Positions 3,701-20,690 of a stretch of DNA of 23,094 nucleotides are shown in pieces. The notes under the pieces are model-generated. The model saw only the letters and a program-made list of their open reading frames with translations. It made no database searches and was not told the origin of the DNA. The DNA lies in NCBI GenBank assembly GCA_015039465.1, contig MU130546.1, forward strand, positions 64,097 to 87,190, given 5' to 3'. A program made the translations under genes and the position numbers. The DNA comes from Phlegmacium glaucopus (lineage: Eukaryota; Basidiomycota; Agaricomycetes; Agaricales; Cortinariaceae). How positions within the stretch are numbered: the first letter of the stretch is position 1; each line of letters starts with the position of its first letter.

Positions 3701-4249
3701 TACGGCCGAGGACCGTGAGACCGTGAGGACGGTCGAGGACTTCGCCGAGGACTTCGTTACGGCCGAGGAGTTCTCTACGGCTGAGGACGTCTTTACGGCC
3801 GAGGACTTCTCTACGGCCGAGGACTGCTTTACGGCCCCGGATGGTTACAACGCTTGCGAGTTCGTTACGGGGGTAGTAATCTTGGTCGAGGTCTCCAGGA
3901 GGGTCGAGGGGGGAGAAGGTGGCACAACGGAGGTGGGGAGTAGGGGAGATGGGGCCGGTGTCACCTGTACGGTTCACAGGTCGACGAAGGAGGGTGTGGG
4001 TCGTGTAGAGTTCTCCGGCGGTTGATGTGCCGTTGGTGGGAGGATGTCCACGGCCAAGAGGGGAGTTACCGGCTATAAGGGGCGGGAGGCCGGAGAGGTA
4101 GATGATGCCGGTGGTCCAGAGCAAGAGTTAGGGGACGGTAACTGTCCAGTCTGGAGGCGGCCAGAGGTGTAGATTGTGGCTGGAGCTTGTTTGCGCAACC
4201 ACTACTGAGAGATGGTCTCGGCCGATGGTTCTTTGTTTCCGTCCCCACT
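3701..4249. other. Pro/Ser-rich protein readable only in the left-to-right complement
   Basis: The complement, read left to right, is open for 182 codons from ATG at 3701 to TGA at 4247-4249. It opens with PAPEE/MPAPQE-type repeats, continues Pro/Ser/Thr-rich, contains RSRSQSPAIDRSDLRRSPHL and ends SLPEPATKKQRQG, a plausible nuclear-targeting tail. Strand is given as '.' because no normal strand encodes it. If the block is restored by plain reversal, this becomes a minus-strand gene converging on the gene below. The family is not recognised. Confidence 0.6.
3735..3846. repeat. 18-bp tandem minisatellite
   Basis: About six degenerate 18-bp units (ACGGCCGAGGACTTCTCT-like). Read in normal polarity they give TAEDFS/TAEDVF hexapeptides; in flipped polarity they give MPAPEE hexapeptides. 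Because the period is a multiple of three, both frames stay open, so openness here alone proves nothing. Confidence 0.75.
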
Positions 4250-4451
4250 ACCCGGGAGAAAAAAAACAGCGACGATGTACCCTATTAAAAAAACACGTAA
4301 GAAAGGTGCATGTATCTAAAAACACAAGAAAGTAACAACCCATTGCGGGTATTATATATATCGTTACTTTTAAACAAAAAACTAGTCAACGTCCAGCTGT
4401 AATGTCCGACGGCCCAATTGGTCTGATTTATTTAGTGACCACGGCCTACTG

Positions 4452-4967
4452 AATTGCGGCTGCAAACGGCCAACGGGGTATAAAGACTCGGAGGAGAGCA
4501 CGATTACAAAGCCGTAAGAAAGGAAATGCGGAACCACTGTGTCGACCCACCTGACCCTCGTCTAAGTGGTAAACCCAACATAAATGACGGCGACCACGGC
4601 CACGGCCACGTTTATGATCACCAAGACAACACTAGTGACGGCCCTGGGTACCTCTATGACCCAGATTAACACAACAAAGACTATCCCTGACACCCAACTA
4701 ACGGCTCGTACGGCCACGGCCATAGGTTGGAACCGTCTCAAGACTCAACTTACGGCCACGGCTTCGCTCTGGACAGCTACTATCTGAGAGGTACTTATCT
4801 GGACCTGTGTCACTTCCCAGGTCCCTACCTAGCTCCAGTTTACCCACCAGTTTCAACATACGGCCCAGATTTTACTCTGAGCCGTCACGGACACCAACCA
4901 GGTACTACTGACCCAACAGACTCTTGCAGTAGTAACCTAGCAACAGTCACTGCCTTATGACTTATAG
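4452..4967. other. Protein C terminus readable only by reading the plus strand backwards
   Basis: Reading the printed bases from 4967 down to 4452, without complementing, gives 171 sense codons and then TAA. Segments include DIQYSVTDNDPMMTF, DPAYNFDHPFDLDPSLDPS, FAPAPAPAAVN and a final RRKGKNAETLAREEAQKYG followed by a GKRRR tail. The APAPAPA block and basic end suit the missing C terminus of the gene starting at 2142, which would continue directly if the block were reversed in place. Confidence 0.6.
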
Positions 4968-4992
4968 AAAAAAAAAAAAAAAAAAAAAAAAA
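4968..4992. repeat. Run of 25 A
   Basis: An uninterrupted A homopolymer at the right edge of the mirror block. It may mark the junction or a low-quality join. Confidence 0.9.
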
Positions 4993-6047
4993 GAAAGCAC
5001 TGCCCCACATGATGGCCCTGGCAGTAGTTAAAGTATAAATTAGACATTGCATTGTTTGTACCCAATAGCTAGTCTATGTGATTCAATCGTGGACAGTGCC
5101 GGTTGATAAATGCCGGTTGATATAAATATTGCTGGCATACACAATGAGGATTGACACACCAATGCCGTCTAGTCTGGGTTGATTCTTGCAATGCTAGTTA
5201 GTCTGACGTGCCGGTTCATATTGTGCCAGTTGGCAGTGCTCGGATATATTCCCGGCTTACACGAAACATAGATACTGGCAATTTTGATTAATCCTTTTAA
5301 TGCCAGGCTCTCTTGATTGCTGCTTCATATTAATGTACTATTCCCAGCTTATATCAACAGCACCGCCTATTGATACTACAATCTGGACTGCCCGTTTATC
5401 ACAGCTCTGTGGGTCATAGCCGGTTCATATATGTAATGCCGGCTCATCCACACCTGCCGGTCGAGTGTGCCGGTTCAGACAATCTGCCGGGTCAGACAAT
5501 CTGCCGGTTCAGACTGCCGGTTCAGACTGTCCCGGTTGAGACATTCCTGCTAGTCACTGGCAGTGCTAATTAATGCCGGGCTGTCTTGAGTCCTTAACAT
5601 CAGTCTATATCACTGGCCATAGCCAGGTCATGAGTATTACCGTCTGATATCTATTTAATGTACTATTCCCAGCTTATACCAGCAGTAGTACCCCCAGTCT
5701 GGACTGCCCGTTTATCATCGGCTCTGTGGGTCAGCCGGTTCATATATGTAATGCCGGCCCATCCATAGAGGTGCCGGCCTGTTCAGATACCGGCATTGCC
5801 ATTTCATACCCTGCATTCCTGATCCTGGAGTGCCGGTTCATACCTACTGCCTCTATCCCAGGACTACAAGTCCCTGTTCATCCCAGCAACAGCTGGTTGA
5901 TCTGAGCATCACCCGGTCATAGATGGCCAACTATCACCAGTTGAAAACACTCCTGCCGGCTCATACACCCTACCAAAACACATCGGTTGACAGCACCCGG
6001 CCATGCTGATAGACCTGCCCAGCATCGTCTAGTGCCGTAGGTATTCC
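4993..6047. repeat. Intergenic field of degenerate TGCCGGTTCA repeats
   Basis: No gene is visible. Dozens of TGCCGGTT, GCCGGTTCATA and GCCGGTTCAGAC motifs occur, with a tight cluster at 5469-5545. The hexamer core is the same as in the PAPAPA coding tracts and in the intron at 2732-2801. Polarity here is normal. Confidence 0.7.
5331..5778. repeat. Direct duplication, copies 5331-5460 and 5656-5778
   Basis: Both copies run TAATGTACTATTCCCAGCTT, then TCTGGACTGCCCGTTTATC, GCTCTGTGGGTCA, GCCGGTTCATATATGTAATG and a final CATCCA. They differ by scattered substitutions and small indels. Confidence 0.8.
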
Positions 6048-7114: not shown

Positions 7115-8274
7115 GAGGTCTTTACACTCCCCCACGTCTTCCTGGAGGATTCCTGCCATTCCTGGTAGGAATACCAGGATTCCAGGAGGAATTTGCTACC
7201 AGCCAATTTCCTCTGATTTCCCCTGAAATTGACAATTCCTTGCTCTTCCTAATCCAGGTATAAATTTCCTTGAGTACCAGGAATCCACCAGGAATCTGGG
7301 AATTCCTAGGAACTAATCCACCAGGAATCCACCAGGAATCCTTGGAATTCCTGGTACTACCATTAAATAGTATTTATTATTAATATTTAAAGGTATAATA
7401 TAAATACATAAGTTAGTTGTAATTCATACATATATAGGTTAACATATATTAAAGGTGGCAATGCCTTGCTGCCATTTGAGTTTTGAATTTTGTTCAGGCT
7501 GCGAGGTTTGATCATGTGACCACATGTGACCACATGTGACACATCAGAATCCTGGAGGAATCCAGGAGGAATCCAGGAATTCCTGACAAATGAGATTATT
7601 CCTGGTGGATTTCTAGTAAATTCTGGGTGGATTCCTAGTATTCCTGGTGATTACTGGTGGATTCCTGGTTGGTGACAGTTGTGGTTGTAAAGAAAGTGCT
7701 GTTGAGATGTGTCACACCTCACAGCTTGAACAAAGTTCAACATTCAAATGGCAGTAAGGCATTGCCACCTTTAATAGATGTTAACCTATATATGTATGGA
7801 TCACAATTAACTTATGTATTGCTATTTTACCTTTAAATAATATTTAATGGTAGTACAGGAATACTAGGAATCCACCAAGAATTTACTAGGAATCCACCAG
7901 GAATAATCTCATTTATCAGGAATTCCTGGATTCCTGCAGGAAGATATGGGGGAGTGTAAAGTTCAGGATTAAACAATGTATAAGTAATTATAAATGATAA
8001 TAGCTACCCCTCACTAAGGGGTATAGTTGTTAGTATTAAATTAAAGAAATTAATATGTGTATGACAAAAAAAACTAAGAAAATTTGATTGAAATGATGGT
8101 GTAGAAATAATAGTCCTGGGAATTCACCTGGAATTCATCTGGAATCCACCAGGAATTAACCAGGAATTAACCAGGAATCCCAGGAATTTACTAGGAATCC
8201 ACCAGGAATCCTCCAGGAATATTCTCATTAACCAGGAATTCCTGGAGGAAGACGTGGGGGAGTGTAAAGTTCAG
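7115..8274. mobile_element. Foldback TIR element (MITE 1) with target duplication
   Basis: The left end GAGGTCTTTACACTCCCCCAC pairs with the right end GTGGGGGAGTGTAAAGTTCAG. Flanks are GTAATGGTC at 7106-7114 and 8275-8283, a target duplication. The interior from 7115 to about 7967 is a long inverted repeat: the arm around 7453-7510 (AAGGTGGCAATGCC...) is repeated inverted at about 7713-7772. Both arms are full of CCAGGAATCC words. A second right end at about 7936-7967 shows that the right terminus is duplicated, 7968-8274 being an extra right-end copy. No transposase is encoded, so the element is non-autonomous. The roughly 8-bp duplication class fits hAT- or KDZ-type transposases. Confidence 0.85.
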
Positions 8275-8490: not shown

Positions 8491-11400
8491 ATGTCTACTT
8501 CATCGAAACACCAACTCACTCCTGAGCAGATTCAGGAACTGCAAGCAAAGTTTACTCGATTCCGTATCCTCGTGATAGGGCGAGCCAACGCAGGCAAGAC
8601 AACAATCCTGCGAAGACTTTGCAACGCTACAGGAGAACCTATGATCTTCAGTCCAGATGGTAGAAAGGTGAAATACGCGGTGGAAGTTCATACCAGATAT
8701 TAACATCCATGCCCATGATCCCAGATCGAGTCATCCACCCTTGATCCATCCGTGAATGTAAGTGGTTCATGTCTTAATATTGGGTTATGTTCGACCAATA
8801 TCCTCACGCTGTAGCGTGGAGAGCATGACATTGAGAATCAAATGATATTTGAGAGTAATCCTGGTTTTATCTTTCACGATTCCCATGGTTTTGAAGCTGG
8901 CGGCGCTCAGGAGTTGAAACTGGTACAGGAATTCATTAAGGAGTGTTCGAGGGCAAAAAATGTGAAGGAGCAACTTCATGCGATTTGGTGCGTTAGTACG
9001 CGTCTTTAAAGAACTACTTTCTTCACAGAGAAATAGGTACTGCATTCCAACGAGTGATGACCAACCAATCACTGCAGCAGAAAAGAAGTTTTTCAATGAA
9101 TGTGGGACAGGGCTTGGTATGTGTTGCCTTATCAATATTTCACCATGAAAGCTGACTCTGAGAAGTACCGGTGATTGTCTTGTGGACCAAGACTGATTCT
9201 CTTGACGTTGCTAAAATCAAACAACTCATGAAGGAAGGTAACAGTTGGGCTGAGGCGATGAAACAAGCCCCCCAGAAAGCTTGGACTGATTTTGAACAGA
9301 GTATTCATCAACGGTTTGAAGAGTTTAAATATCCACCCAAAGCATATGTTGTATTTCGAAGTAAGTGTTATCCTTGTTAATAACTATTTGGCTAATTATC
9401 TGGTGCAGAGATGCATGAGCCTGGAGCTGATTGTAAAGACCTGATTAAGAAAACAACAGCTGCACTCTCCAGTGAAGAGTTACAACAGCTCCTTATTTCA
9501 ACACAGCAAAACAATGTTGAGTTATGTGTTGCATATGGAGTTAGAAGGTGGGGAACTATCATTTTTAAAATTTACCACATTAATATGATTCCTAGAATTG
9601 TACATAAGACAACATCCAGTCTGTTGAAGAATGAAAGAGATGGGGTTGATGTTATGGCAAATGTGCTGAGATATTTTCCACAAATTGTAGTATGTATTTG
9701 GTCAGATCAAAATAAGCCATTGACAACTGATTGAGTTGTTGTCTAGAGTGTTATCTTGAGCATTTAATAGTCAAAATTAAACTAACATATAATTTTTGGC
9801 AGTATGTATGTAGGAAAAGAGTTTTATCTGGCTGGTTACCTCACTTTTTCTCTGACAGGTTGTGAGTCTAAGACAATCTTGATCTGCCTTGACTCTAGCT
9901 TACTCTTTTAACAGCCAGTAAGTGCAAGATGACCCTTGATCTGCCTTGACTCTAGCTTACTCTTTTGATAGCTGGTAAGTGCAAGGCCATCTTGATCTGC
10001 CTTGTCTCCAGCTTACCCTGTTGACAGTTTGTAAGTGCAAGACCATATTGATCAGCCTTTACTCCAGTTTTCTCTTTTGACAGGCAGTAAGTCCAGGACC
10101 ATATTGGCCTGCCTTGACTATAGTTTACTACTTTTACAGGATGTAAGTGTGGGACCATCTTGATCTATGTTGACCTCTAGTTTACTCTTCTGACAGGATG
10201 TAAGTGGAAGACCATCTTTATTTACTTTGACTCTACTTTACTCTTCTGACAGGATGTAAGTGCAAGACCATCTTCATCTGCCTTAGCTCTAGTTTACTCT
10301 TCCAACAGTTGGTAAGTGCATGACTATCTTCATCTGCCTTTACTCTAGCTAACTCTTGACAGGGAGTAAGGTGCAAGACTGATCTGCCTTGACTCTAGCT
10401 TACTCTTTTGACAGTGGGTAAGTACAAGACCATCTGCCTTGACTGTAGCTTACTCTTTTGACAGGCTGTAAGTGAAAGACCATCTTTATATGCCTTGGCT
10501 TTTGCTTATTCTTTTGACAGGCTGTAAGTGCAAGACTACCTTGATCTGTCTTAACTTGAACTTACTACTTTGATAGGATGTAAGTGCAAGACCATCTTAA
10601 TCTGCCTTGACTCCAGCTTACTCTTTGACAGTGGGTAAGTGCAAGGCTATCTTAATCTGCCTTGACTCTAGCTTACTCTTTTAGCAGTTTGTAAGTGCAA
10701 GACTACCTTGATCTGTTTTGACTCTAGCTTACTGTTTTTGACAGGGAGTAAGCACAAGACCATTTTGATCTGCCTTGACCTTAGCTTACTCTTATAACAG
10801 TTTGTAAGTGCAAGACCATCTGGATCTGTCTTGACTCTAGCTTACTACTTTTGACAGGATGTAAGTGCAAGGCCAATCTGCCTTCACTTTTGCTTACTCT
10901 TTTGACAGTTTGTAAGGACAAGACCATCTCAATCTGCCTTGAATTTAGCTTACTCTTTTGACAGGATGTAAGTGCAAGACCATTTTATCTGTCTTGATTC
11001 TAACTTACTCTTTTAACAGATGGTAAATGCAAGATGATCTTGATCTACCTTGATTTGAGCTTACTCTTTTGACAGTGGGTAAGTGCAAGACCATATTGAT
11101 CTGCCTTGACTTGAGCTTACTCTTTGGACAGGGAGTAAGTACAAGACTATATTGATCTGCCTTTACCTGAGCTTACTCCTTTGACAGGGAGTAAGTACAA
11201 TACAATATTGATCTACCTTGATTCTGGCTTACTCTGTTGACAGTTTGTAAGTGGAAGACCATCTTTATTCACCTTGACTCTTGCTTACTCTGTTGGCAGA
11301 TGGTAAGTGCAAGACCATGTGCATCTGCCTTGATTCTAGATTACTCTTTTTGACAGGATGTAAGTGCAAGACCATCTTGATCTGCCTTGACCTTTAGTTT

Positions 11401-13781
11401 ACTCTTTTGACAGTTGGTAAGGTTGAAATCCCATCTTGATATGCCTAGACTCTAGCTTACTCTTTTGACAGATGGTAAGTGCAAGACCATCTTGATTTGT
11501 CTTGCCTCTAGCTTACGCTCTTTGATAGTTTGTAAGTGCAAGACTATCTTGATGTGCCTTGACTTACTCTCTTCACAGGATGTAAGTGCAAGACCATATT
11601 GATCTGTCTTAACTCTAGCTTGCTCTTTTAACAGATGGTAAGTGCAAGATGATCTTGATCTGCCTTGGCTCTAGCTTACTCTTTTGACAGTTTGTAAGTG
11701 CAAGACCATCTTGATCTGCCTTGAACTCCAGCTTAGTATTTTGACAGGGAGTAAGCACAAGACCATTTTTGGTCTGCCTTGACTCTAGCTTACTCTTTTA
11801 ACAGGATGTAAGTGCAGGGCCATCTTGATCTGCCATGACTCTAACTTACTCCTTTGACAGGATGTAAGTGAAAGACCATCTTCATCTGCCTTAGCTGTAG
11901 TTCACTCTTTGTACAGGATGTAAGTGCACAACCATCTTGATCTGCCTTGACTCTATCTTTTTCTTTTGATAGTTTGTAAGTGCAACACCACTTTGATCTG
12001 TCTTAGCTCTAGCTTAATCTTTCACAGTTTGTGAGTGCAACACCATCTTGATCTGCCTTGACTTAGCTTCCTAGACTGCAAGTACAAGATCATCTTGATC
12101 TGCCTTGCCTCTTTCTTACTCTTTCAACAGGAGGTAAGTGCAAGACCATCCTTATCTGCATTGCCTCTAGCTTACTCTTTTGGCAGTTGGTAAGTGCAAA
12201 ATGCTGAGCTTCTTTGCCTCTGGCTTATTTTTTTAACAGGATGTAAGTGGAGGACCATCTTGATCTGCCTTGACTCTAGCTTACTCTTTGATATATTAGG
12301 ATGTAAGTGCAAGACCATCTTGATCTGCCTTGACTTTAGCTTACCCTTTTGACAGTTGGTAAGTAAAATACCATCTTGATCTGCCTAGCTTCCAGCTTAC
12401 TCTTTTGACAGTTGGTAAGTACAATGCCATCTTAATCTCCTTTACTCTTGCTTACTCTTTTGACAGGGAGTAAGTACAAGACCACCTTAATCTGCCTTGA
12501 CTTGAGCTTCCTCTTTTGACAGATGGCAAGTGCAAAGCCATCTTAATCTGCACTGACTCTAGCTTACTCTTTTGACAGAATGTAAGTGCAAGGCCATCTT
12601 GAATCTTAATCTGCCTTAACCTGAGCTTACTCTTTTAACAGTTGGTAAGTGCAAGGTGATCTTGATCTGCCTTGACTCTAGCTTACTCTTTTGATAGGAT
12701 GTAAGTGCAAGGTGATCTTTATCTGCCTTGACTTGACCTTACTCTTTTGACAGTTGGTAAGCACAAGGCCATCTTAATATGCATTGGCTGTAGCTTACTT
12801 TTTTGACAGAGAGTAAGTGCAAGCATAGAGAAGTCTTTATCATTCTGTTATCTTCCTTTATTGATGTCTGCTTTCTTGCTATCCCTTTGATGACAGGAAG
12901 TATGTGCAACAGAGCTATCATTACCATTCTTTTACTGATGTTACAATATATTTGGACAGAATGTAAGTGCACTGATCATATTATTGTTGTTACTAACTCA
13001 ATTGCCATATTCTTTGGGCAGCATGTATGTTGAACATGTTATTTCATTTACTGTCTACTCTATGACATACATTTGTTGACAGACTGTATGTTCAAATAGT
13101 TTGTGATCTGCCTTTTATCTGCTTACTTATGGAACACCATTATTTACAGAAGGCGAGTATTACAATTACTCTTAATATTGCCTCTAGTGTCTGCAATAAC
13201 ATTTGGTGATTTTTTTTACATATGTTTCTTCTCTATACTCACCTTTTTTAATCAGCTTTCATAAATTTCAATGTACAGGATTCCATCTCCAAAATCATGG
13301 GATCCATTGTGAGTATTTGCTCTTTAAGAATACCAATGAATAACAAATTTGGATTTCAAAATTTCAAGCTTACTGGCCTACCTACCAACATCAACTTGGA
13401 AGAAACTACATATTGTGCAATTGGCATGCATCTGATTCAACCTCTTTTCTATACTCTCTATATTGACTCTTTCTATTAGTTGCAGCAATTCTTGGCCACT
13501 TATCTTTCTTTCTTCACAAAGAATCACCAAATGAAACTGACTCTTTGGAAAGAGCTGTCCAAATTTACCAGCAATCAACTTGTGACACCTCTGTCAAACA
13601 AGCAGTTGAAAAGATTTTTGAACTTGAAGATCTTTCTGATGGCTATGCATTCTCAAATATTTTCAAAGCCTCTAACATCAATCATGCAACACTAGCTGAA
13701 GATGCTGTACAGATTGCATTGAATAATCTCATATGTATGGATTTTACAATTCACTTCTTTTTATTTGTTGACAAGTACTAA
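8491..13781 (+). CDS. GTPase-like P-loop protein whose middle is built from 60 single-codon exons
   Basis: ATG at 8491 (MSTSSKHQL). Exons 8491-8667, 8725-8757, 8815-8987, 9037-9116, 9166-9360, 9409-9547 and 9596-9689 sum to 297 codons ending in phase 0. Motifs: Walker A GRANAGKT (residues 30-37), switch DSHGFE, and WTKTD as the guanine-specificity motif, so it is a TRAFAC-type G protein of the kind abundant in Agaricomycetes. Sixty 3-nt exons follow (9803-13152), then 13279-13308 (DSISKIMGSI), probably 13369-13414, and 13480 onward (AAILGHLSFFLHKE...FSNIFKASNINHATL) to TAA at 13779-13781. The 13309-13368 stretch may be an intron ending AAG or retained in-frame sequence. A 3' end using a GTATGG splice site near 13733 is an alternative. 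Predicted length is about 480-500 residues. Biochemical role unknown. Confidence 0.75.
9803..10311 (+). other. Microexons 1-10
   Basis: First base and residue of each 3-nt exon: 9803 Y (TAT), 9859 V (GTT), 9915 P (CCA), 9972 L (CTG), 10028 F (TTT), 10084 A (GCA), 10140 D, 10197 D, 10253 D (all GAT), 10309 L (TTG). The preceding exon ends CAAATTGTA at 9689 in phase 0. The intron after exon 1 (9806-9858) is not a close copy of the repeat; the array proper starts with the intron at 9862. Confidence 0.8.
10363..10860 (+). other. Microexons 11-20
   Basis: 10363 G (GGA), 10415 W (TGG), 10465 A, 10521 A (both GCT), 10577 D (GAT), 10632 W (TGG), 10688 F (TTT), 10745 G (GGA), 10801 F (TTT), 10858 D (GAT). 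Introns between them vary from 47 to 54 nt. The one ending 10464 has lost several internal bases, yet both splice sites and the 3-nt exon are intact. Confidence 0.8.
10909..11416 (+). other. Microexons 21-30
   Basis: 10909 F (TTT), 10965 D (GAT), 11020 M (ATG), 11076 W (TGG), 11132 G, 11188 G (both GGA), 11244 F (TTT), 11300 M (ATG), 11357 D (GAT), 11414 L (TTG). The intron after exon 23 starts GTAAAT and the one after exon 30 GTAAGG; the others keep GTAAGT. Confidence 0.8.
11472..11975 (+). other. Microexons 31-40
   Basis: 11472 M (ATG), 11529 F (TTT), 11579 D (GAT), 11635 M (ATG), 11691 F (TTT), 11748 G (GGA), 11805 D, 11861 D, 11917 D (GAT), 11973 F (TTT). The intron 11532-11578 is only 47 nt, with a shortened branch region that still reads GACTTACTC. 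Confidence 0.8.
12028..12525 (+). other. Microexons 41-50
   Basis: 12028 F (TTT), 12075 T (ACT), 12131 E (GAG), 12187 L (TTG), 12240 D, 12300 D (GAT), 12356 L, 12412 L (TTG), 12467 G (GGA), 12523 M (ATG). The shortest intron of the array (12031-12074, 44 nt) and the longest unit-like one in this stretch (12243-12299, 57 nt) are both here. Introns after exons 42 and 50 begin GCAAGT. Confidence 0.78.
12579..13152 (+). other. Microexons 51-60
   Basis: 12579 N (AAT), 12642 L (TTG), 12698 D (GAT), 12754 L (TTG), 12810 R (AGA), 12897 E (GAA), 12960 N (AAT), 13022 H (CAT), 13083 T (ACT), 13150 K (AAG). From exon 55 on the introns are longer (58-84 nt) and unrelated to the repeat. The one at 12963 has a perfect TACTAAC branch site. 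The last intron starts GCGAGT. Composition shifts from Asp/Phe/Gly/Leu/Met to polar residues. Confidence 0.75.
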
Positions 13782-17540: not shown

Positions 17541-18662
17541 ATCTGTGCTATCGTGCACCAATACTGATTGGTAGCATGGGTAAAAAGCTTAAAAGTTGCC
17601 ATCATGAAAATAAGCAGACTTTGAATTCACTTGCCTGTTTTGGAAGTGGCCCTGAATTGTGTTCCTGGTCAACAAATCATCTACGGTCTAGTGTTGCTGA
17701 TGGCTCAAGCTGCTTTTTTTCTATCTTGTTAAATAAATTTTGTAAAATCACCAAAATATTTGAGTAGCTAGATTGCTTCAGGAGCCAGGGGGTCTTTTGC
17801 CAACATTAAGCGATAGGAACCAAATTTCCCATGCTATTTGATTATTTTGGTGATTTTACAAAATTTATTTAACAAGATAGAAAAAAAGCAGCTTGAGCCA
17901 TCAGCAACACTACATCTACCATCCTTTTGTTCCTTGGCTAGCTGTTCAACAAAGTGATCAATCCACTATTCACATTGGTCATCAGCTTGCATTTGATTGT
18001 ATCTTTGGCCCATCATTTCAAGAATGGCCTGTTTATGGACACATCAGCTACATCCCCCATTATGTAAAAGGCTTTGTCATTATTGTTGTGGCTATGGACC
18101 CACAAGTCTTCCCCTCAGCTATCTACCTTGCCATACCTCGCTCCTGGATCACACTCAGTCCCCTATCCTCAATTATCTACCTCTTATCTTATCATTCACT
18201 GCCAAAACCATCATTCACATGGTACCTGACACCTTCCCACCCTCTTTATGACACTTTAGGAAGTCCAGGAGGATCACAACTAAGCAGGAGTTGCAGATGA
18301 ATCAGCAGCAGAGGATTATTCTTGCAGTGTGTCAAGTGTTATCAAAGCTGCACGACATGGGATCATGGGCAAGTAGTATTTTCTCAGGAACAAGGCTGCA
18401 CCTTTCAAGTGTTGACTCAGTACCTTTCATATTTTGACATGACCACACAGCTATGGAGTTGATATATTTTTGCTATTGGACTGTGTACACTGCCTTCTCT
18501 TCTTTTCTCTTGCACTTTGACACTTTACAGATTTTTTTATTGTTCCTTCTTCTTTTCCATTGTTCTTTTCTTCTTGCAGCTGTCCTCTCTTTATCTTTCT
18601 TCCTTTGACAGCACATACTTCTTTCCTTTTTATTGTTCTACATAGCCTTATCCTTAGGGTAT
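17528..18662 (+). repeat. Left arm of a large inverted duplication
   Basis: Matches 19691-20690 in inverted orientation, by eye roughly 85-90% identical outside the inserted TIR element. It includes a 135-codon open frame (17893-18300, HIGHQLAFDCIFGPSFQEW...) whose counterpart on the right arm is also open; I do not recognise the product. Compared with the right arm, CpG is almost always TpG or CpA here. The left boundary lies within or just after the gag remnant, so the duplicated unit may be part of the same retroelement. Confidence 0.75.
17691..17910. mobile_element. 220-bp element with 67-bp perfect terminal inverted repeats at TA
   Basis: GTGTTGCTGATGGCTCAAGC at the left end is repeated, inverted, at the right end. 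The two arms match without a mismatch for about 67 bp (17691-17757, 17844-17910) around an 86-bp centre. TA lies on both outer sides, as with Tc1/mariner-type insertions. The other copy of the surrounding duplication lacks it. Confidence 0.75.
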
Positions 18663-18671
18663 AATGTTGAA

Positions 18672-18927
18672 GAGGTCTTTACTCTCCCCCACCTAATCCA
18701 CACAGAGTCCATGCGGAGTCCGAGCTGTCCACACAAAATTTAAAACTTTTGTAATATATATACATACCTATCCTAATTCTAACCCTAACCTTAACACTAA
18801 CTTTAACCCAACCCTAACCAATTCCTAACAAATCCATGCAGAATGCTAAGAGTCCACGCAGACAGCTCGGACAGCTTGGACTCTGCACAGACTCTGCAGG
18901 GAGTAGGTGGGGGAGTGTAAAGTACAG
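18672..18927. mobile_element. TIR element MITE 3 (256 bp)
   Basis: The left end GAGGTCTTTACTCTCCCCCAC pairs with the right end GTGGGGGAGTGTAAAGTACAG. It has a perfect 8-bp target duplication ATGTTGAA (18664-18671, 18928-18935). The arms carry CCACACAGAGTCC/GGACTCTGC-type words, and the centre is CTAACCCTAACC-like (18776-18822). It inserted at the end of the left duplication arm. Confidence 0.9.
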
Positions 18928-18935
18928 ATGTTGAA

Positions 18936-19690
18936 TAACAAACTGTATTCGCTTCTACAGCGAAGCGAGGTACAAGCGAAGAGATAGAATAAGGTCTTTG
19001 AGAAGACGAGAAGTGCATCACGTGCATCTTCTCTCTCTCTCTTCACCCTCGCTGGCGTAGAAGAGCTCGACAATAATTCTAGGTCGAGCACCCACTGCAT
19101 TACTCCTTTCCTTTTCACCCACCCTCCTCTCCCTAACTTCGGCATGTCACTAGTGACAGTGCCTTTTCCTGATCCAAAAAGACCCCAACGATGTTTTCAC
19201 ATGTGGCCAGTAAAAACCCTAATCATCATGCCGAAGCGTGGCCCACCCGCTATAAATCGTTGTTTGTGTTGTTATAAAACACCAACCAGAGAGCAATGGA
19301 CTAGTCTTTAAGTCAAAAGCCTCCCTGTTGTTCGTTTAGGGAAGGTGTAACCTTCACTTGTATCACACAGAGGTAGGGAGCAAGAGTAGAGGTGAGGAGG
19401 ATGAGGATGAATGAGGAAGAGTCTTCAGTAAGACTATAGCAGTTGACAGTGGGTTGACAGTAAAGGACTGAAAAAGCGAACTCAGAGGGGTTAAGGAAGA
19501 GGATGAGGAAGAATAAGAGGGAGTCTTCAGCAAGACTATAGTAATTGACAGTGGGGATAGATTGACAGTTAAAGGACTGAAAAAGCGAACTTGAGGGAGG
19601 AATTCACTGGAATTCCACTGAGATGATGAAAGTGGGGGGGTAAGAATGAATTTAACTGAACTACCTATCCTGGTACAAAAGAGCAGTATT
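18936..19690. other. Spacer between the duplication arms
   Basis: No clear gene. It has a CT-rich stretch near 19030, CTTCGGCATG at about 19137 matched inverted by CATGCCGAAG at about 19228, two TATAAA boxes (about 19250 and 19273) and a tandem repeat. CpG is much commoner here than in the left arm. Confidence 0.45.
19397..19597. repeat. Two tandem ~100-bp units
   Basis: Units at about 19397-19489 and 19499-19597. Each holds GAGTCTTCAG(T/C)AAGACTATAG, TTGACAGTGGG, and AAAGGACTGAAAAAGCGAAC in order. Confidence 0.8.
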
Positions 19691-20690
19691 TATACCTAAG
19701 GATGAGGCTATGTAAAACAATAAAAAGAAACAAAGTACGCGCTGTCAAAGGAAGAAAGATAAAGAGAGGACAGCTGCGAGAAGAAAAGAACAATGGAAAA
19801 GAAAAGGAACAGTAAAATAATCTGTAAAGTGTCAAAGTGCGAGAGAAAAGAAAGGAAGGCAGTGTACATAGTCCAATAGCAAAAATATATCAACTCCATA
19901 GGCGTGTGGTCATGTCAAAATATGAAAGGTCCTGAGTCAACACTTGAAAGGCGCAGCCTTGTTCCCGAGAAAACACTACTTGCCCATGGTCCCATGTCGC
20001 GCAGCCTTGATAACACTTGACACACTGCGAGAATAATCCTCTGCTGCTGATTCATCTGCAATTCCTGCTTAGTTGTGATCCTCCTGGACTTCCTAAATTG
20101 TCATAAAGAGGGTGGGAAGGCTTCAGGTACCGCGTGAATGATGGTTTTGGCAGTGAATGATAAGATAAGAGGTAGATGAGTGAGGATAGGGGACTGAGTG
20201 AGATCCAGGAGTGAGGTATGGCAAGATAGATAGCTGAAGCGAAGACTTGTGGGTCCATAGCCACAACAACGATGACAAAGCCTTTGACATAATGGGAGAT
20301 GTGGCTGATGCGTCCATAAACGGGCCGTTCTTGAAATGATGGACCAAAGATACGATCAAACGCAAGCCGATGACCGATGCGAATAGTAGATTGATCGCTT
20401 TGTTGTATCACTAGCCAAGGGACAAATGGATGGTAGATGTTAAGGAGCATGTCGATAGTGTAAATGATAGACAACATAGTGGAAGACATTGAGGATATGA
20501 TGAGCGATGAGGATGTTATCGTTGAATGAATGATTTTGTTGACCAGGAATGTGATTCAGGGCTGCTTCCAAAATAGGTAAGTGAATTCAAAGTCCGCTTA
20601 TTTTCATGATGGCAACTTTTAAGCTTTGTTCTCACGCTACCAATCAGTATTGGTGCACGACACCGGGTAGATCATTACCATGAATGTGTG
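19691..20690 (-). repeat. Right arm of the large inverted duplication
   Basis: Inverted match of 17528-18662. On the minus strand it has a 145-codon open frame (20489-20052, HIGHRLAFDRIFGPSFQER...) ending at the same stop as the left-arm frame (SQLSRNCR against SQLSRSCR). It keeps about 100 bp near 20430-20550 that the left arm lacks, where the left arm has the TA-flanked TIR element. Product not recognised. Confidence 0.75.

Follow-up and report, generated by a model that had tools for sequence, protein, structure and literature searches.

The window, meaning the whole stretch of 23,094 nucleotides that was analysed, contains a gene in which two ordinary coding parts enclose a chain of 60 exons of a single codon each (Table 1). 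The seven upstream exons encode 295 amino acids of a P-loop GTPase, including the sequence GRANAGKTT, and end in phase 0. An earlier note on this DNA had given the same phase after 297 codons; the phase was correct, whereas the open-frame exon model has 295 codons. The window GTPase reached 25.2 bits with Pfam MMR_HSR1, above the cut-off of 21.9, and a Pfam search with the GTPase fragment alone returned nothing useful. On the other side of the chain, GATTCCATC at 13279 continues in frame as had been proposed, and the frame stays open through all three C-terminal exons. The array accounts for 60 of the at least 468 codons of the gene.

Table 1. Features of the gene with the one-codon exons, and mirror-image array units; positions without a prefix refer to the window.
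Feature	Position	Strand	Basis or remark
Seven ordinary coding exons, GTPase part	8491-8667, 8725-8751, 8815-8987, 9037-9116, 9166-9360, 9409-9547, 9596-9689	+	Open frame, GT..AG introns, homologues
First array intron, 113 nt, GTATGT..GCAG	9690-9802	+	Questionable AGT triplet at 9747
Chain of 60 one-codon exons	9803-13152	+	TAT 9803-9805 first, AAG 13150-13152 last
Starts of one-codon exons 1-15	9803, 9859, 9915, 9972, 10028, 10084, 10140, 10197, 10253, 10309, 10363, 10415, 10465, 10521, 10577	+	
Starts of one-codon exons 16-30	10632, 10688, 10745, 10801, 10858, 10909, 10965, 11020, 11076, 11132, 11188, 11244, 11300, 11357, 11414	+	
Starts of one-codon exons 31-45	11472, 11529, 11579, 11635, 11691, 11748, 11805, 11861, 11917, 11973, 12028, 12075, 12131, 12187, 12240	+	
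Starts of one-codon exons 46-60	12300, 12356, 12412, 12467, 12523, 12579, 12642, 12698, 12754, 12810, 12897, 12960, 13022, 13083, 13150	+	
Tandem array of 56-nt unit (53-nt intron and 3-nt exon), about 53 copies, 76% matches	9853-12823	+	TRF
Unit with lost usual acceptor (GATAT 12290-12294), substitute ATTAG five bases on	12290-12302	+	
Last array intron, 126 nt, GC donor	13153-13278	+	Exon model
C-terminal exons	13279-13308, 13369-13423, 13480-13733	+	Open frame, GT/GC..AG; last end provisional
Mirror-image array units	C203:153374-155046 (L035), C249:9241-11141, C220:121582-121672, C237:858840-860044		Inside or beside normal arrays

The claim of 60 consecutive triplets with splice borders held on recounting. 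The 60 exons of 3 nucleotides read YVPLFADDDLGWAADWFGFDFDMWGGFMDLMFDMFGDDDFFTELDDLLGMNLDLRENHTK, and all 61 introns within 9690-13278 run from GT or GC to AG, with GC donors at 12078, 12526 and 13153. The intron lengths of 44-60 nucleotides first reported were too narrow, as the actual range is 44-126 nucleotides and the first intron already measures 113 nucleotides in the exon model. The motif [CT]AG-NNN-G[TC][AG][AT]G has 59 occurrences on the plus strand of this region and none on the minus strand, whereas 500 dinucleotide shuffles of the same region average 0.67 and do not exceed 4. In the unit that has lost its usual acceptor, the substitute ATTAG keeps the exon (GAT at 12300) at 3 nucleotides. 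The AGT triplet in the first array intron (9747-9749) fits the same rule and is probably not a further exon; it was rejected because its donor, which is weak and differs in L012, L016 and L020, is not kept in all paralogues. The units of the window array are about 21% different from each other, and between 9807 and 13086 a single CpG is present versus 132 expected, as in methylated repeats.

The genome of Phlegmacium (Cortinarius) glaucopus (60.5 Mb) was searched for further copies of this intron family, called family A. A unit pattern free of the codon gave 139 matches, with 8 for the reversed control, and a dimer of the unit gave at least 744; by hand count of the rows listed, pattern and dimer matches fall into about 40 places. 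Chains of three-nucleotide exons were found in all 20 further loci that were fetched, and in each of them at least one flank belongs to the same GTPase gene family. In 16 loci the flanks match the two parts of the gene, in two loci the GTPase part alone and in two the C-terminal part alone. Over the whole genome, the GTPase exon has 56 matches and the C-terminal domain has 50, of which 43 are strong. Two of the loci, L025 and L026, are adjacent and carry opposite gene halves, and they possibly represent a single gene whose parts lie about 8 kb away from each other. Some arrays of this family are less regular. In L012 (about 4143-5216, plus array strand) and in L024 (about 5081-5812) the one-codon array is interrupted by about 1.1 kb and about 0.7 kb of other sequence, respectively, and then resumes. 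In L022, units 18, 23 and 26 of an otherwise one-codon array are exons of 9 nucleotides (CAAAAGAAA, AAATGGAAA and CAACAGAAA), a length of whole codons even where introns are missing.

A second intron, family B, is 73 nucleotides long and unrelated to family A in sequence, and it builds one-codon chains in all eight loci fetched for it (L029-L036), which are more distant paralogues of the window gene. Both gene halves were detected by tblastn in L029, the flanks of L030-L033 are 82-96% identical to those of L029, and L034-L036 carry one or both halves according to the genome matches of the C-terminal domain and the GTPase exon. The family B intron pattern has 102 exact matches in the genome. 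The chain in the window is not unique: at least 28 related GTPase genes contain chains of one-codon exons, with up to about 70 exons, where 28 and not 29 genes are counted because L025 and L026 may be one.

Exon lengths were counted for family A in 21 loci, the window included. Slots in which a flanking intron matched the consensus by less than 60% or a gap exceeded 30 nucleotides were excluded before counting (54 of 785); the corresponding exclusion in family B removed 31 of 224 slots, most of them in the mirror stretch of L035. The raw exon length is 3 nucleotides in 704 of 731 slots in family A and in 191 of 193 in family B. By eye, the 27 exceptions in family A resolve into 16 exons of 3 nucleotides with a shifted splice site, three of 6 nucleotides, three of 9 nucleotides, one of 4 nucleotides, one case in which acceptor and exon were lost together, and three that are unclear; the two exceptions in family B are one exon of 3 nucleotides with a small insertion and one of 2 nucleotides. 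Indels in the introns amount to 0.0174 per site, and an equal rate would give 36.7 indels in the exons of family A. Stop triplets are nearly absent, with 2 of 704 in family A (59.7 expected, P 1.7e-24) and 1 of 191 in family B (16.8 expected, P 4.4e-7), two being TAG and one TGA. These expectations assume independent positions and units, and the P values are too small because the units of an array are not independent, although the direction is still plain. Among the intron columns of family A, the donor GT and the acceptor AG are the most conserved (0.976-0.989, the others 0.733-0.958). No codon of family A ends in C (NNC 0 of 704, versus 44 of 295 in the GTPase exons of the window), which CpG loss may explain. 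A constraint of splicing against C preceding GT was rejected as the only cause, since the CpG deficit of the array offers the simpler explanation.

The splice sites, stops and exon lengths bear on the possibility that 9690-13278 (3589 nucleotides) is one long intron with an intron-derived satellite, in which the triplets would be noncoding and the splice sites kept by descent. That the array is a tandem repeat according to TRF would agree with this, as would the available gene models. In model P0006 the two halves are connected directly and the array is missing. The P. glaucopus models P0001 and P0004 read on beyond FP..IV and end within the first array intron. The same holds for P0003, a contig of 1117 bp from which the ordinary introns are gone and which is probably a cDNA of a relative. 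However, a satellite would not be expected to have almost no stops, to hold the 3-nucleotide length while its introns vary, to conserve splice sites above the other columns in family A, to restrict synonymous differences (see below) or to compensate a lost acceptor as at 12290-12299, and the same anatomy recurs with the unrelated intron of family B. A single long intron thus appears unlikely, and a simple satellite within it was dismissed on the stops and the exon lengths. At the DNA level, the original suggestion of single-codon exons that are each followed by an intron remains the best-supported reading. It is based on the exact 3-nucleotide lengths, the conservation of the splice sites, the few stops and the amino-acid constraint, and an additional 28 loci that carry two unrelated intron families show the same. 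At the RNA level, the splicing of the 60 codons is a prediction from the genomic sequence, and no transcript containing them was found.

Within the arrays, codons vary strongly and introns vary little. Codon positions 1 and 2 differ in 67-68% of the comparisons within an array, versus 7% for introns in family B and 17% in family A. Pairwise intron differences are as low as 0.9% in L029, 1.0% in L030 and 1.6% in L033, where 65%, 60% and 68% of the exon sites differ pairwise, respectively; older family B arrays reach intron differences of 16% (L031), 6% (L032), 11% (L035) and 19% (L036). Measured as the difference from the array majority, exons exceed introns 119-fold in L029, 89-fold in L030, 62-fold in L033 and 46-fold in L034. 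Even among 416 pairs of family B units from five loci with both flanking introns at most 2% different, 91% have different codons. Where two units share the same two-fold amino acid, their codons seldom differ: 6 of 134 pairs do so in family B, all six of them in L032, and 50 of 616 in family A. The third bases of the family B codons are A in 103, T in 83, G in 3 and C in 2 cases.

As codons for two-fold amino acids rarely differ, the changes take place at the level of the amino acid. This fits diversifying selection, and a shuffled fixed set of old units would give the same result. Selection alone can barely account for codon divergence this strong when the introns show no comparable rise. Mutation directed at the exons was considered as the source of codon diversity in place of selection, in line with the 46- to 119-fold ratios of four family B arrays. 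A blind process of this kind should also produce silent changes, so that their rarity at two-fold codons argues against it, together with the skewed third bases of family B, even if reuse of a repertoire of old units could produce a similar rarity. Exon-targeted mutation was rejected as the sole cause because silent changes are rare, and we regard it as highly improbable.

The introns of L029, L030 and L033 are equally alike between and within loci (0.9-1.3%) despite flanks that are 90-94% identical, which indicates that they were homogenised or have recently spread. If mobile, introner-like introns had entered an older, uninterrupted coding stretch between its codons, similar introns next to differing codons would be explained. 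Introns that differ by 1-1.6% within and between these three loci, while the flanks of the five compared loci are 82-96% identical, and the hundreds of similar introns in the genome are consistent with such insertions. On the other hand, insertion would need to have hit every codon boundary and no other. Moreover, by eye the first array intron of L029 and L035 follows the consensus at its 3' end only and the last one at its 5' end only, and such chimeric introns are the expected product of a tandem duplication of an exon together with its flanking half-introns.

Duplicated neighbour units in family A also fit tandem duplication. Adjacent codons are identical in 88 of 683 cases, compared with 60.1 after shuffling, a value reached in none of 2000 shuffles, and introns are also more alike between units with the same codon, both inside an array (0 of 300 permutations) and from array to array (2 of 300). 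In family B, no excess of adjacent identical codons was seen (17 of 183 versus 17.2), and between arrays of this family codon similarity was not linked to intron similarity. The lack of NNC codons in family A, as opposed to their presence in the GTPase exons, is a further point against an older continuous stretch, with the restriction that CpG loss could account for it. Insertion of introns between old codons was rejected on account of the chimeric end introns, and introner-like insertion has little probability as the origin of the arrays.

We consider it probable, judging from the features of the sequence, that the 60 three-nucleotide exons between the two halves of the GTPase gene are predicted constitutive exons of a fast-changing inter-domain segment, in which units duplicate and codons diverge by selection. 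Constitutive splicing would then yield a segment of 60 residues with one codon from each exon. Arrays may lengthen and shorten by tandem duplication and unequal crossing-over of the unit of codon plus intron, introns could be kept alike by turnover of units and exchange between loci, and strong diversifying selection on the amino acid would drive the codons apart. Since all introns are in phase 0 and each exon is one codon, about 95% of crossovers (53/56 nucleotides) would fall into introns and whole codons would be gained or lost. Unequal exchange that moves whole codons would thus edit the segment without frameshifts, one amino acid at a time. A likely use is a fast-changing recognition surface on the GTPase; the recognition role itself is a guess from the hypervariability and the expansion of the family. 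The chances are about even that the arrays represent a codon-level diversification cassette, in which recombination between near-identical introns would write, delete and shuffle single amino acids with frame and splicing intact. Such a cassette would have evolved with two unrelated introns within a single GTPase family, and exon skipping could generate very many isoforms from it.

Among the gene models, C-terminal halves are present as separate short models, and the best 120 of 1079 homologue matches listed included no full-length protein of the subfamily with array-like codons. Long low-complexity linkers occupy the position of the array in P0025 and P0030, and a homologue search with the linker of P0025 found only P0025 itself. 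The label of probable cDNA for P0003, P0025, P0030 and P0040 was inferred from the size of the record in relation to the length of the protein. The AlphaFold structure of the full-length homologue P0025 (mean pLDDT 72.8) is confident for the GTPase domain and poor for the linker and the C-terminus. Foldseek matches of P0025 were weak, the best being the bacterial dynamin-like protein BDLP and the immunity-related GTPase IIGP1 (E 1.4e-5 to 1e-4, TM 0.28-0.36), and a search of the PDB by sequence gave no match.

Assembly quality was also taken into account, as units that are reversed and not complemented were found at four places, and runs of N are present in L019, L023 and L034. When the codons of these mirror stretches are read backwards, they resemble real ones. 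We know of no natural process that reverses DNA without complementing it, and the mirror stretches are probably a fault of assembly or gap filling. If all arrays were assembly artefacts, these places would be a sign of it. However, mirror units occur in one of the 28 fetched loci and are absent from the window, the difference of about 21% between the window units is unlike errors of collapse or duplication, and frames and codons are orderly. It is thus extremely unlikely that the arrays as such are artefacts.

Very short exons and families of similar introns have been described in other organisms. In schistosome MEGs, symmetric exons of 6-36 bp are reported to make up about 80% of the coding region and variants to arise by alternative splicing; the products are mostly secreted or membrane-anchored, and the fast-changing repertoire is thought to come partly from micro-exon duplication and shuffling (PMC5825161). 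The arrays share with MEGs, as outlined there, numerous short, frame-preserving symmetric exons and the fast-changing repertoire, whereas the exons here are single codons, the introns are tandem repeats and the array comprises only a minor part of the coding region (PMC5825161). Most of the coding region of the window gene does not lie in exons of 6-36 bp, and its product begins with a P-loop GTPase domain. Aphid bicycle genes have about 17 exons on average, the internal ones nearly all in phase 2, and are putative effectors (PMC9168663). They resemble the present genes in being a large family with many small exons and, probably, in strong positive selection; by this account they differ in phase, since the array exons here are in phase 0, one codon long and in tandem (PMC9168663).

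Fungal introner-like elements are described as hundreds of near-identical spliceosomal introns in unrelated genes (PMC4457414). Hundreds of near-identical copies are also found here, whereas in all 20 fetched family A loci they are arranged in tandem at a single site within one gene family, unlike the elements in that description (PMC4457414). Duplication across an exon-intron boundary can create a new intron with inherited splice signals; the reported case is one event in one gene, as opposed to dozens of iterated units here (PMC4974935). A 1-nucleotide exon in Arabidopsis APC11 can be spliced (PMC4674806), and a 3-bp exon is known from Drosophila homothorax (PMC7392893); both are isolated in these reports, whereas the exons here form chains. 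The nearest known kinds are schistosome MEGs and aphid bicycle genes, neither of which is presented with one-codon arrays in the accounts cited. In the open-access literature searched, no description of a chain of one-codon exons was found.

Spliced as predicted, the chains would attain the density limit of one intron per codon over about 70 consecutive codons at most, in dozens of genes of one organism. The handling of serial 3-nucleotide exons by the spliceosome would become testable, and likewise the evolution of a protein surface by whole-codon edits. That introns are kept for the sake of recombination is an old idea on why genes are split, and this could be tested as well. Standard annotation would split such genes in two, as seemingly happened here.

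Other elements were noted in the rest of the window. Upstream of the GTPase gene, at 7276-8220, TRF detected an 11-bp minisatellite that occurs in clusters and is related to GGAATTCACCA. Two overlapping open reading frames without a Pfam match lie on the minus strand at 1141-2068 and resemble proteins that we take to be linked to KDZ transposons. Pfam searches with eight window open reading frames other than the GTPase gave no match. A large inverted repeat occupies 17551-20660, with main arms of 644 nucleotides at 17912-18555 and 19797-20440 that are 92% complementary, and with further arms outside and inside them. Both main arms hold a similar open reading frame without a Pfam match, and TAACCC-like repeats are located between the arms at 18773-18819 (TRF).
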